This document shows positions 30,408-37,845 of a stretch of 64,000 bases of DNA, in pieces. The notes below the pieces were generated by a model that saw nothing but the letters and a program-made list of their open reading frames with translations, was not told where the DNA came from and did not search any database. Location of the stretch: contig NC_014150.1 of assembly GCF_000092845.1 (NCBI RefSeq), positions 992,001-1,056,000 of the forward strand. Reading direction: 5' to 3'. Position numbers and translations under genes: made by a program. Origin of the DNA: Brachyspira murdochii DSM 12563 (GTDB lineage: Bacteria > Spirochaetota > Brachyspiria > Brachyspirales > Brachyspiraceae). The first letter of the stretch is position 1. Every line of letters starts with the position of its first letter.

Positions 30408-30986
30408 ATGAAAAAATATATTTTTTATTTAATGCTTATATTATTTTTAGTTTCCTGCAAAACAGTTCAGGTATACAATATAAGAGATGATTCTGATAAA
30501 TCTCATTTTGTAAAAATAAACAGAGTAGAATATTTAAAGCCCAATATAAAATATAATATAGACGGAACAGAATATAACACTGATACACTATCAAGAATAT
30601 ACAAAGTTACAAGAAAAAATAGTTTGATACTCTCTAATGCTAAGCGAAATAATTATGCTCAGAGAAAAATAGTAGAACTTTACGGCATAAAAGACTGCGA
30701 TCAGGGAGGGCATATTATAGGCAGACAATTCGGTGGCTCTCCTAATATTGATAATTTAATACCAATAAGCAAAAGTTTAAATATAGGCGAAATGCTAAAA
30801 ACAGAGATGGAATGGAGAGATAATCTCAATGAAGGCAATGAAATAAAAGATATAATAATAAATATAGAATATGTATACACAAATATGCGTCCTAATATAA
30901 TAAGAATTAATTATACAGTAGATAAAGATTATACCAATTATAAAGTAATAAAAATATTTACAAACATAGCAGAAACAAACAATTAA
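30408..30986 (+). CDS. lipoprotein DNA/RNA non-specific endonuclease
   Basis: A 192-residue protein with a lipoprotein signal (LFLVSC, Cys17). The catalytic segment DQGGHIIGRQFGGSPNIDNLIP (residues 98-119) carries the conserved His102 and downstream Asn of the Endonuclea_NS_2 group of beta-beta-alpha-metal nucleases, followed by EWRDNLNEG and a RPNIIRINYTVD strand as in that family. Such enzymes cut DNA or RNA outside the cytoplasm, either for nutrient uptake or as toxins. No immunity gene is seen alongside. The start has only a weak ribosome-binding site. Confidence 0.8.
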   Translation: MKKYIFYLMLILFLVSCKTVQVYNIRDDSDKSHFVKINRVEYLKPNIKYNIDGTEYNTDTLSRIYKVTRKNSLILSNAKRNNYAQRKIVELYGIKDCDQGGHIIGRQFGGSPNIDNLIPISKSLNIGEMLKTEMEWRDNLNEGNEIKDIIINIEYVYTNMRPNIIRINYTVDKDYTNYKVIKIFTNIAETNN

Positions 30987-33712: not shown

Positions 33713-34042
33713 TTAAATAAAACTGCTGTTAGCTACATTAACAACATTTATATTATTTCTCGTAGTTGATGCAGTATTTGTCTTAATATTAGTATCATCT
33801 TGAGGGGTTGAATATAATAATGATAATACCAATGCTAAAACTATTGCCGAAGACAAAGCAAAAGAAAGCCTAGCAGAACACATAAAAGCATAAAAAGGAT
33901 TAAATTCATTTTTCTTAGAACTTTCCATCTTAGCCCTTTGAAGCATGTACTGCCATTCTCTATCAGGCAAACTAGGCAAATCGAAATAATGTTTTCTTCT
34001 TTCAATTTTGCTTTTAAATTGCATCATCTCATGTAATTTCAT
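33713..34042 (-). CDS. short single-pass membrane protein, putative anti-sigma factor
   Basis: A 109-residue protein with a cytoplasmic N-terminal part (EMMQFKSKIERRKHYFDLPSLPDREWQYMLQ), one membrane segment at about residues 58-77 (RLSFALSSAIVLALVLSLLY) and a short extracytoplasmic tail. It starts within the stop codon of the ECF sigma gene (ATGA overlap), the usual layout of a sigma/anti-sigma pair. It lacks the HxxxCxxC zinc motif of many anti-sigma factors and is very short, so the assignment is contextual only. Confidence 0.6.
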   Translation of the reverse strand: MKLHEMMQFKSKIERRKHYFDLPSLPDREWQYMLQRAKMESSKKNEFNPFYAFMCSARLSFALSSAIVLALVLSLLYSTPQDDTNIKTNTASTTRNNINVVNVANSSFI

Positions 34043-34611
34043 AAAAGAGTCCTTTCTTTTTCTAATAGCGATTTCATTTTTTTAAGGGCATAAGAATAGT
34101 TGCTCTTAGCCGAATCGCTTGATATATTTAAAATATCTGCTATTTCTTTATATGAGTAATTCTCATAATATCTCAATATAAAGACATCTCTCTGTTTTCC
34201 CTTCAATTTTCTAGAGGCATTATATATTTTCTCCTGAAGGTATATCCTCTCATATTCTTTTTCGGTATTATACCTCTTATCATCTACTACCTCTAATTTT
34301 TCCAAATAAGGCGACTCTCTCCTATAAGCCTTAGAATACATGTTTATAGCGGTATTGCTTATTATACGGTATAGCCAGCCTTTGAAATAATTACGTTCTT
34401 CATATCTGTCTATAGCTTTATAAACACGTATAAGTACATCTTGTGTTAAATCCATAGCATCTTCATAATTATGCATGAAACGATATGATAAATTAAATAT
34501 ATAATTTTTATATCTAGTTAATAATAAGTCTAATGCTTCGCTGTCGCCTTTTTTATGTGCCTCTATAAGTTCATAATCTTTTAATAATTCTTTTTCTTTA
34601 GTTTCTATCAT
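34039..34611 (-). CDS. ECF-type RNA polymerase sigma factor
   Basis: A 190-residue sigma factor of the RpoE group. Sigma region 2 reads DLTQDVLIRVYKAIDRY then FKGWLYRIISNTAINMYSK, and region 4 reads RDVFILRYYENYSYKEIADILNISSDSAKSNYSYALKKM. I start it at ATG 34611: the longer frame opens with TTG at 34626, but the TTGGAG there is itself a ribosome-binding site nine bases upstream of the ATG. The overlapping downstream gene encodes a small membrane protein, probably its regulator. The target regulon is unknown. Confidence 0.92.
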   Translation of the reverse strand: MIETKEKELLKDYELIEAHKKGDSEALDLLLTRYKNYIFNLSYRFMHNYEDAMDLTQDVLIRVYKAIDRYEERNYFKGWLYRIISNTAINMYSKAYRRESPYLEKLEVVDDKRYNTEKEYERIYLQEKIYNASRKLKGKQRDVFILRYYENYSYKEIADILNISSDSAKSNYSYALKKMKSLLEKERTLL

Positions 34612-34690
34612 CTCTGCAAACTCCAATTATCTGTTCTTAAAATAATATATACACATTATTTATAACAAATACAATAACATTTAAGTAAAA

Positions 34691-36505
34691 TCAGGCCATA
34701 TAACTTTCTTTGACAAAATTCTTATTAGAACCGTCAGTTTTCTTTTTATCATTTCCTGAGTTTACTGCCTCTTTCTCATTAAACGCACACTCTATATCAT
34801 ATTTAGTAAGAGTGAGAGTATTGCCTTTTATACCGTCCAAATTAAAAAGTATATTGACCATTGCTGTTTCTACTATACTTTTTAATGACCTTGCCCCCAT
34901 ATTCATACTAGAAGCCTTATCAACTATAAAGTTAATAGCTTCTGAAGTTACAGTAAGTTTTTTACCTATACTTCTAAAAAATTCCGTGTATTTTATGATA
35001 GGAGATTCTTTAGTTTTTGTCAAGATATCTTTTAAATTTTCCTTAGTAAGCTCATTTAAAGTTACTATTATAGGTATTCTTCCTATAAACTCCGGTATCA
35101 TACCATATTTTTCTATATCTTTAACATCAACTTGACTTAATATTCTATCCTTTTGAAGTTTATTAATAACTGCATTAGAACCGAAACCTAAACTATTTTC
35201 TCCTTTCAAACGCATTTTTATAATATCATCAAGCCCAACAAAAGCACCGCCGAATATGAATAATATATTTTTAGTGTTCATAAGTATGCCGTCGCTTGAA
35301 TGCATCATACGCCTATCTCCGAACTCCGGAACCCTTATGTCCTCTCCATTCATCATAGAAAGCAAAGCCTCCTGAACAGCCTTATCTGAAGGGTTGCCGG
35401 TAGTAGACTGATGTGCATCTGCCTTCGCTATCTTATCAACTTCATCTAAAAATACTATACCATGCTGAGCATGCTCCAAATCTCCATTAGCCTTTCTATA
35501 TAGATTGTACAAAACAACCTCTACATCATCTCCTACATATCCTGTTTCTGTAAGTGTAGTAACATCGGCACGTGCAAAAGGAAGTCCTAAAATATCGGCT
35601 AATGTCTTTACCAAATAAGTTTTTCCAACACCTGTAGGTCCTATCATAAGTATATTAGACCTAAAAGGTATTTCTTTATTTCCGCTTATTCTAAGGCAAT
35701 GCAGATATGCATGTACTGCCAATGCCTTTTTAGCCTCATCCTGACCTATAACTGTTTTATCAAGTTCTGCTACTATTTCTTTTGGTGTAAGTATATCTGA
35801 TGATTTTTTCTTACCTGATGCCTTATTTTCTGATGTATATTTTCTTATAACTTCTTCGCTGTTTATAACTCCTTCTATAATACTATAATTCTCTTTCTCC
35901 AAAAAAGCAAAAATGATTTTAGAGTTAATAAATGTTATAAGCGTATTTGATATCTCTAATATGCCGCCGCTTGGATACGGTTCATGAGATAATGTAAATA
36001 TACCGCTTGACATTAATTTACCTTTAGGGTCAAAATAATGATATTTATTTATATATATATCTGAATTTAGAGTAATAAGTTCTAATATACGTCTGATAGA
36101 TATGGCAGACATAGAATCCCCATAAATTGTATATACTAAAACTGAATATAATATAAATCTCTCATCTAAATTAAGTTCTCTTTCAGTTATAAATTTTTCT
36201 ATATTAAAATTATATTTCTTAAAACCAGATATTTTTCTTACATCACTCTTTAATGAATTAACAAGCAAATCAACCTCATTGGCATTATTAACAGCTTTTT
36301 CATTGTTAGAAGTCATTTCATCTTCATACCCTAAAGCTCTGTCAATATTGCTTGATAATCTTCTAGTCATATCATTTCTATCGGATATCAAATTTAATGT
36401 ATAAACTATCTTAGTAATTATTTCAAAATATGCCCTGAAAGCATCGTCTCTGTCTTTGTATTTTTCCTGATTTTCTTTAGCTTCTTCATTATTTTTCTTC
36501 TTCAT
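34691..36505 (-). CDS. ClpX-like AAA+ ATPase with a divergent N-terminal domain
   Basis: A 604-residue protein. From about residue 236 it is a ClpX-type AAA+ module: GPTGVGKT (Walker A, 289-296), pore loop GYVG (322-325), VFLDEVD (Walker B, 351-357), and the ClpP-docking loop SLGF (438-441). The usual ClpX zinc-binding domain (four cysteines) is absent: the first 240 residues contain no cysteine and instead include LDERFILYSVLVYTIYGDSM and FDPKGKLMSSGIFTL, somewhat like a winged-helix adaptor domain. The RKH pore loop of ClpX is replaced by RRMMHSS. It probably unfolds substrates for ClpP but with its own recognition domain. rimO ends 17 bp before it, on the same strand. Confidence 0.88.
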   Translation of the reverse strand: MKKKNNEEAKENQEKYKDRDDAFRAYFEIITKIVYTLNLISDRNDMTRRLSSNIDRALGYEDEMTSNNEKAVNNANEVDLLVNSLKSDVRKISGFKKYNFNIEKFITERELNLDERFILYSVLVYTIYGDSMSAISIRRILELITLNSDIYINKYHYFDPKGKLMSSGIFTLSHEPYPSGGILEISNTLITFINSKIIFAFLEKENYSIIEGVINSEEVIRKYTSENKASGKKKSSDILTPKEIVAELDKTVIGQDEAKKALAVHAYLHCLRISGNKEIPFRSNILMIGPTGVGKTYLVKTLADILGLPFARADVTTLTETGYVGDDVEVVLYNLYRKANGDLEHAQHGIVFLDEVDKIAKADAHQSTTGNPSDKAVQEALLSMMNGEDIRVPEFGDRRMMHSSDGILMNTKNILFIFGGAFVGLDDIIKMRLKGENSLGFGSNAVINKLQKDRILSQVDVKDIEKYGMIPEFIGRIPIIVTLNELTKENLKDILTKTKESPIIKYTEFFRSIGKKLTVTSEAINFIVDKASSMNMGARSLKSIVETAMVNILFNLDGIKGNTLTLTKYDIECAFNEKEAVNSGNDKKKTDGSNKNFVKESYMA

Positions 36506-36522: not shown

Positions 36523-37845
36523 CTATTTAACCAAATCACCTATTAAATCATATTCTGTATGATGAGTGATATTTACTTTAACTATATCACCTATATTTAT
36601 ATCATAATTATTTTCATTATAAACCTCAACACAGCCGTCAACCTCTGGGGCATCATATTTGCTTCTTCCTATAAACTTATTATCATCTTCTTTTTCTTCT
36701 ATCAATACATCTATAGTTTTTCCTATAAATCTTTCAAGCCTCTCTTCAGAAACCTCTATAGCAGCCCTCATAAGTCTCTCTCTAAGCATCATTTTTTTGT
36801 TTCTGCTTATTTTAGGCTTATCTATAGTCAATGCTTTTGTATTCTCCTCTTCGGAATATGTAAACACCCCTACCCTATCTATTTTGGCACTTCTCACAAA
36901 TTTTATTAACTTCTTAAAACTCTCTTTGGTTTCACCCGGAAAACCTACTATTAAAGAAGTTCTTATTACAGCATTTTCATCATAGCTTCTTATTCTATTA
37001 ATCATATTTCTGTAAAATTTGTATGCTCTTTTTCCTCTATTCATATCTTTAAGTATTTCTTCATCAACATGCTGCAAAGGTATATCAAAATAAGGAACAA
37101 CTTTATCTATAGTAAAAAATGCTTTTATTATATCATTATTTAGTACAACAGGATTTTGATATAATACCCTTATCCATTCAATACCTTCAATCTTTGAAAG
37201 TTCTTTTAGCAAATCCGGCAAAGCTAATCTTTTATAAATATCATGTCCGTAATATGTAGTTTCCTGTGCTATTAAATTAATCTCCTTAGCACCATTTCTA
37301 GCATAATTCTCTGCCTCTTTAACTATATCTTCAATCTTCCTGCTTCTATGATCTCCCCTAATACCGGGTATAGCACAAAAACTGCAATTAGCATGACAGC
37401 CGTCACTTATCCTTATATAAACACTATATTTAGAACCAGTATTTATTCTATCCCCATACTCTTTATATTCGGTATTATCTTCTCCGTCATAAAAACCGTC
37501 TTTATTTACAGCTTCCAATATCTTTTCCAAATCATGTATACCTATAGCAGCATCAACCTCTTTAAACATATCAAGAAAATTATCTTTATACCTTTCACTC
37601 ATACAGCCGGATACTATAAGTCTTTTACATTTTCCGTATTTTTTGTACATAGAATGGTCAAATATAGCATCAATTGATTCTTTTTTTGAATCTTCTATAA
37701 AAGCACAAGTATTTATAACTATAACATCAGCATCTTCCGGATTATTGGTAACATTAAATCCGTTTTTCTGTAATATAGCTAATATATGCTCTCCGTCAAC
37801 CGTATTTTTCTCGCAGCCCAAACTATGTAAATATATATTCTTCAA
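36523..37845 (-). CDS. rimO: ribosomal protein S12 methylthiotransferase RimO
   Basis: A 440-residue radical-SAM enzyme that methylthiolates an aspartate of ribosomal protein S12. The N-terminal domain opens with LHSLGCEKNTVDGE, followed by NTCAFIEDSKKESIDAI, which identifies RimO and not MiaB. The radical-SAM cluster is CHANCSFCAIPGIRGDHRSR. It ends with a TRAM-like region. Start codon is TTG at 37845, preceded by AAGGA. It is followed after 17 bp by the clpX-like gene. Confidence 0.95.
   Translation of the reverse strand: MKNIYLHSLGCEKNTVDGEHILAILQKNGFNVTNNPEDADVIVINTCAFIEDSKKESIDAIFDHSMYKKYGKCKRLIVSGCMSERYKDNFLDMFKEVDAAIGIHDLEKILEAVNKDGFYDGEDNTEYKEYGDRINTGSKYSVYIRISDGCHANCSFCAIPGIRGDHRSRKIEDIVKEAENYARNGAKEINLIAQETTYYGHDIYKRLALPDLLKELSKIEGIEWIRVLYQNPVVLNNDIIKAFFTIDKVVPYFDIPLQHVDEEILKDMNRGKRAYKFYRNMINRIRSYDENAVIRTSLIVGFPGETKESFKKLIKFVRSAKIDRVGVFTYSEEENTKALTIDKPKISRNKKMMLRERLMRAAIEVSEERLERFIGKTIDVLIEEKEDDNKFIGRSKYDAPEVDGCVEVYNENNYDINIGDIVKVNITHHTEYDLIGDLVK

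Follow-up and report, generated by a model that had tools for sequence, protein, structure and literature searches.

Adaptors, and many of the substrates that the AAA+ unfoldase ClpX handles, usually enter through the zinc-binding domain at its front end, and HslU, a member of the same wider AAA+ clade, has an inserted I-domain. Brachyspira murdochii possesses the canonical system: its clpX gene (2298337–2299569 of the genome) adjoins clpP, of which the genome has one clear copy, in the order tig–clpP–clpX, and the four N-terminal cysteines of the product form the zinc-finger pattern CxxC...CxxC. This gene, which a preliminary description of the locus analyzed here had suggested looking for, was recovered by searching the genome with the protein presented below, to whose core the ClpX-like frame of 417 amino acids is 42% identical. 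An hslU-like gene is also present in the genome.

The locus in question belongs to a stretch of 64,000 nucleotides of the B. murdochii chromosome (hereafter “the window”) and encodes a ClpX paralog without the zinc-binding domain, for which the name ClpX2 was coined in this analysis. With canonical ClpX, ClpX2 has in common the AAA+ core, the Walker motifs, the GYVG pore, the LGF/IGF loop, the arginine finger and sensor 2; it differs from it in having ~237 other residues in place of the four-cysteine zinc domain, in carrying RRMMH where canonical ClpX has RKH, in ending with an (M/L)A tail, and in forming a separate clade. The machine is of a known kind, namely ClpX, and what is new is the combination of a predicted winged-helix front end with a ClpX core. 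No account of a winged-helix ClpX, of a second Brachyspira ClpX or of ClpX2 itself was found in the literature searched, a literature that most subscription journals lie outside of.

The clpX2 gene and its ATPase core

The clpX2 coding sequence extends from 34691 to 36505 on the minus strand of the window and, according to the open reading frame list and its translation, specifies 604 amino acids. It was in exactly this frame that the preliminary description had placed a ClpX-type ATPase, and an intact ClpX-type AAA+ core is indeed present. The large and small AAA+ domains occupy residues 238–560 (34826–35794, minus strand), as judged from the ClpX models and from structure matches: NF003745 scores the protein 366.5 bits over residues 211–572, passing its cut-off of 359, TIGR00382 matches the core portion alone with 325.6 bits, below its cut-off of 370.75, and solved ClpX structures match residues ~219–559 (best E 1.6e-76). 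The HslU model TIGR00390 yields 161.8 bits (cut-off 362.45). One relative (L038) falls under the cut-off of both ClpX models, with scores of 348.9 for NF003745 and 323.5 for TIGR00382.

The preliminary description had credited the protein with all ClpX motifs, LGF loop included, and these are present, the core of the window protein displaying the Walker motifs, the pore loop, IVFLDEVDKIAK, SLGFG, IPEFIGRIP and GARSLKS. On the minus strand, Walker A, GPTGVGKT, is encoded at 35618–35641 (residues 289–296), the pore-1 loop GYVG at 35531–35542 (residues 322–325), Walker B, inside IVFLDEVDK, at 35441–35458 (residues 350–355), the arginine-finger segment IPEFIGRIP at 35072–35098 (residues 470–478) and sensor-2, GARSLK, at 34880–34897 (residues 537–542), each of these motifs being found in 31/31 orthologs; TETGYVG and sensor-1 are likewise intact in all of them. 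The LGF loop, counterpart of the ClpP-docking IGF loop, was located by means of the ortholog motifs at residues 439–441 (35183–35191, minus strand); it reads LGF in 30 of the 31 orthologs and IGF in the remaining one, so that, at the level of sequence, the IGF-type docking loop is kept.

The two other loops have a composition of their own. At the equivalent of the RKH loop, RRMMH (residues 398–402; 35300–35314, minus strand), placed by ortholog motifs and by alignment to canonical ClpX, the window protein carries GDRRMMHSS, in keeping with the RRMMHSS reported earlier; among the orthologs the stretch is GDRRMMH in 30/31 and GDRRTMH in 1/31, as opposed to GGRKH in canonical ClpX, and none of the 31 has the canonical RKH loop. 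This order-wide change could represent a loss of degron reading instead of a new specificity. Where the second pore loop would lie, 31/31 orthologs have STTGNPSD, the canonical ClpX of the same genome having SITRDVSG. The protein ends with YMA (34694–34702, minus strand), the ortholog ends being (Y/F/K)(M/L)A; the last two residues are MA in 29/31 and LA in 2/31, and positions −4 to −20 are variable. The tmRNA tag of the organism is ADEYALAA, and the (M/L)A end of ClpX2 might serve either for docking or as a degron for ClpX2 itself.

The N-terminal domain

The ~237 residues that precede the core contain, from residue 1 to residue 235, not a single cysteine, and the four-cysteine zinc-binding domain of ClpX is absent from this segment, as the preliminary description had maintained. 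A cryptic zinc site was considered and rejected because no column of the N-domain conserves Cys or His: in the alignment A2, comprising 22 of the 31 ClpX2 N-domains, neither the list of invariant positions nor that of the 90% positions includes C or H, and the cysteines scattered among the ortholog N-domains are lineage-specific.

Searches with the N-domain gave little. Pfam yields no match above cut-off for residues 1–235 and NCBIfam nothing useful; Foldseek against the PDB and a search of a viral structure library return no match with E ≤ 0.001, and the profile search of the PDB gives chance-level matches alone (best E 0.081). The AlphaFold2 model, computed from the same 22 N-domains (pLDDT 76.5), consists of a two-helix hairpin and a compact second half, the latter being modeled also by itself with a pLDDT of 78.4. 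The predicted hairpin spans residues 19–93 (36227–36451, minus strand; helices 19–57 and 68–93), and its structure matches are assorted helical proteins (best Z 9.0) and little informative. For residues 100–204 (35894–36208, minus strand), in which the preliminary description had suspected a winged-helix-like stretch, an acidic winged-helix domain is predicted by AlphaFold2, with backing from structure comparison, weak WHD matches and profile comparison. Indeed, when the model of this second half is compared with known folds, winged-helix proteins dominate, among them ORC winged helices, MarR-family regulators, TFIIE and Pol III subunits; the best Z is 7.6 (rmsd 3.5 over 89 residues), all Z values of this half being below 8, a range in which common arrangements also score and which is not proof alone. 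The calculated pI of residues 100–205 is 5.35, which speaks against DNA binding. The N-domain is predicted to be a helical hairpin (coiled coil) followed by a winged helix.

A link to a described family is offered by the Pfam domain WHD (PF22977), which matches 13 of the 22 N-domains at E up to 1 (best E 3.9e-4); none of the N-domains shown reaches the gathering score of 27 bits, the member scores shown being 13.6–16 bits, and PF22977 does not match the window N-domain itself at E ≤ 1. Among 149 Spirochaetota genomes searched with PF22977, five have a match; double-ring AAA proteins are included, and one of the matching proteins is the ClpX2 of genome G103 (E 0.008). Furthermore, hhalign of four WHD segments against A2 gave a probability of 76% (E 2.2e-5) with A2 columns 42–166 pairing co-linearly, and a rerun gave 55% with a score of 35.9, against no more than 18.6 when the columns were shuffled (60 controls) and 17.4 upon reversal; with one WHD sequence alone the probability is 1.7%. 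Taken at face value, these profile data make it likely that the ClpX2 N-domain is distantly homologous to WHD. The earlier claim of a new N-terminal domain stands, then, as far as the difference from that of ClpX and the novelty of its combination with a ClpX core are concerned, but not as regards the domain itself, which looks like a distant WHD type. The likeness to the WHD front ends of double-ring AAA ATPases is weak in both Pfam and profile terms, and the WHD-bearing ATPases have two classical AAA domains whereas ClpX2 has a single ClpX-type core. Two such spirochete double-ring proteins with WHD domains are L087 (genome G020) and L090 (genome G144); part 767–992 of L087 has a weak likeness to IteA, the model of an anti-phage ATPase (171.1 bits, cut-off 510).

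Distribution and co-occurrence with ClpX and ClpP

A profile search with the N-domain detects ClpX2 in 31/31 genomes of the Brachyspirales, an order of gut spirochetes, that of B. murdochii included, with one copy in each. Among 392 Spirochaetota genomes the strong matches are those of these 31, ClpX2 not being convincingly found in the remaining 361. Weak N-domain matches in other spirochetes number 6 with a single sequence and 8 with the profile; three of the latter eight (L051–L053), inspected as candidates outside the order, sit in unrelated proteins, as judged from their sequence, and were rejected. Two short core patterns, which relatives with altered motifs would escape, retrieve from a collection of named-species genomes 20 loci, all of Brachyspira or uncultured spirochetes, and no ClpX2 was found in collections of plasmid, phage and viral contigs. 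In one genome (G132, locus L029) in-frame stops are seen in an A-rich run near the expected clpX2 start, which points to a frameshift or a sequencing error.

Of the 31 genomes, 29 yielded a canonical ClpX, G103 and G159 being the two that did not, and 29 likewise a clear full-length ClpP, the exceptions being G147, which is 88% complete, and G159. The coexistence of ClpX2 and canonical ClpX in 29/31 genomes, together with their same core type, would fit a factor that mainly forms mixed rings with canonical ClpX or regulates it in some other way; nevertheless, a core identity of ~42%, a conserved signature belonging to the ClpX2 family alone, and the presence of ClpX2 without a canonical match in G103 and G159 (where gaps are possible) make this a very unlikely explanation.

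The case of G159 bears also on the main rival reading, according to which ClpX2 is a ClpP-independent remodeller that would unfold or disassemble a specific partner in the manner of the double-ring AAA ATPases with WHD domains or of the lone mitochondrial ClpX, its LGF loop being a remnant or weakly used. In G159 ClpX2 is present (L040) and ClpP is not detectable, the RKH loop is altered throughout the order, and other AAA ATPases that are probably not proteolytic have a similar front end. On the other hand, the docking loop is retained as LGF or IGF in all 31 orthologs in spite of a very long stem branch, and G159 also lacks detectable canonical clpX and tig (the latter sought without a positive control), which lie next to clpP in G144, a relative of this genome. 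Because tig was likewise not found, an assembly gap is possible in G159, gap and loss being indistinguishable, and the missing ClpP was rejected as proof of ClpP independence. A remodeller acting without ClpP is on the whole rather unlikely, and the docking of ClpX2 to ClpP is the reading that we prefer.

Selection and descent

In the six comparisons made, dN/dS of the core is 0.03–0.05 in all, and that of the N-domain 0.07–0.15 in five, the sixth being without usable dS; by this measure ClpX2 is under purifying selection. A tree of 36 cores (12 ClpX2, 14 canonical ClpX, 9 C-terminally extended paralogs and 1 HslU) unites ClpX2 in one clade with 100/100 support and sets canonical ClpX apart with 96/96, the separation of ClpX2 persisting after removal of the other long branches. 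A recent duplication of the Brachyspira clpX was rejected as the source of the gene, the canonical ClpX of Brachyspira grouping with other spirochete ClpX and ClpX2 standing apart. From its place in this tree ClpX2 is a long-diverged ClpX-family branch of Brachyspirales; its exact origin is unsure because the stem is very long (2.5–3.4 changes per column) and long branches meet.

Other Spirochaetota possess paralogs (L122–L136 and L138) that resemble ClpX2 in being the product of a second ClpX-like gene without the zinc domain; unlike ClpX2, they have no long N-domain and no RKH-like stretch, possess a C-terminal extension and form a separate clade. Among 120 Spirochaetota genomes, 16 contain these proteins of ~490–525 amino acids, in which DVDLKTPHDLASQVEAAMEAQ precedes the sensor-1 strand, and not one of the 16 has ClpX2.

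Gene neighborhood

The preliminary description had named rimO and a sigma/anti-sigma pair as the neighbors of the gene. The first is borne out by TIGR01125 (477.5 bits): rimO (36523–37845, minus strand) lies 17 bases upstream of clpX2, and the two are probably co-transcribed. Downstream, an ECF-type sigma factor gene (34039–34626, minus strand) is recognized through the Pfam domains Sigma70_r2 and r4_2. As to its companion, a frame of 109 amino acids (33713–34042, minus strand) for which Pfam gives no family above cut-off, the 4-bp overlap with the sigma gene and one hydrophobic segment suggest a putative anti-sigma partner. Across Brachyspira the sigma factor is 88–100% identical to that of the window and the anti-sigma candidate 49–95%. 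Elsewhere in the window (30408–30986) a small lipoprotein-like frame contains GGHIIGRQFGG and, judged by eye, possibly encodes a secreted nuclease-like protein.

The neighborhood was compared in 25 other genomes, with 32 loci of which 7 are repeat loci of a genome. The sigma gene directly follows clpX2 in the window and in 20/20 other Brachyspira genomes, and rimO precedes it in 19 of these 20, the contig being cut in the remaining one. In the three non-Brachyspira members of the same family rimO precedes clpX2 (3/3) and sigma does not follow it (0/3), and in the two members of a second family neither is beside it. The genes rimO and rodZ–lolA are older neighbors of clpX2 than the sigma pair.

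Anti-sigma factors are known clients of the canonical protease, ClpXP finishing off RseA or RsiW once these have been cleaved. By analogy, ClpX2 might be dedicated to degrading, in a regulated manner, the anti-sigma factor encoded next to it, as the constant position of the sigma gene after clpX2 in Brachyspira would invite one to think; yet the pair is beside clpX2 in 0/5 carriers outside Brachyspira, in which the protein and its N-domain are nonetheless conserved, so that this dedication appears the least probable of the explanations considered. Indeed, since the sigma pair is found beside clpX2 in the genus Brachyspira only, it does not reflect a general function and constitutes weak functional evidence.

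Proposed function and its implications

The reading that we favor, with a probability of about 0.6, is that ClpX2 is a second ClpP-docking unfoldase that operates beside canonical ClpX and has substrates of its own by virtue of its exchanged front end. What is read from the sequence is the core with its conserved motifs, the absence of a zinc site, the single copy throughout the order and the purifying selection, whereas the fold of the N-domain is predicted. Mechanistically, ClpX2 would assemble into a ring as an unfoldase of the ClpX family; its acidic winged-helix front end, in this reading a distant relation of the WHD modules that precede Cdc48-like AAA ATPases, and its altered RKH loop would bind its own substrates or adaptors, substrate choice thus presumably residing at least in part in the N-domain; the bound substrates would be drawn through the conserved GYVG pore and the LGF loops would deliver them to the ClpP shared with canonical ClpX. 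That the substrates are distinct from those of canonical ClpX is likely. More tentatively, an ancient ClpX branch may have taken its winged-helix front end from AAA ATPases of the Cdc48/WHD type and given rise to a second ClpXP protease with a degron code of its own, the RR(M/T)MH loop and the (M/L)A tail included, which all Brachyspirales have kept.

A first consequence concerns annotation: ClpX2 passes NF003745 as a ClpX, and genome-based counts therefore merge two different machines. A second concerns the literature on the genus. According to the introduction of PMC5415613, which cites Movahedi and Hampson, the ClpX of B. pilosicoli was evaluated as a vaccine candidate, and PMC4955376 and PMC4973917 mention PCR tests of clpX; in the portions of these three papers available to us, none says which of the two Brachyspira clpX genes is meant. 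For a Brachyspira “ClpX” considered as an antigen, as in PMC5415613, which of the two genes it is matters. Finally, ClpX2 offers a natural means of testing the contribution of the front end to a ClpX machine, in that the motor and the docking loop are kept, the front is exchanged and the ordinary ClpX is present in the same cell.
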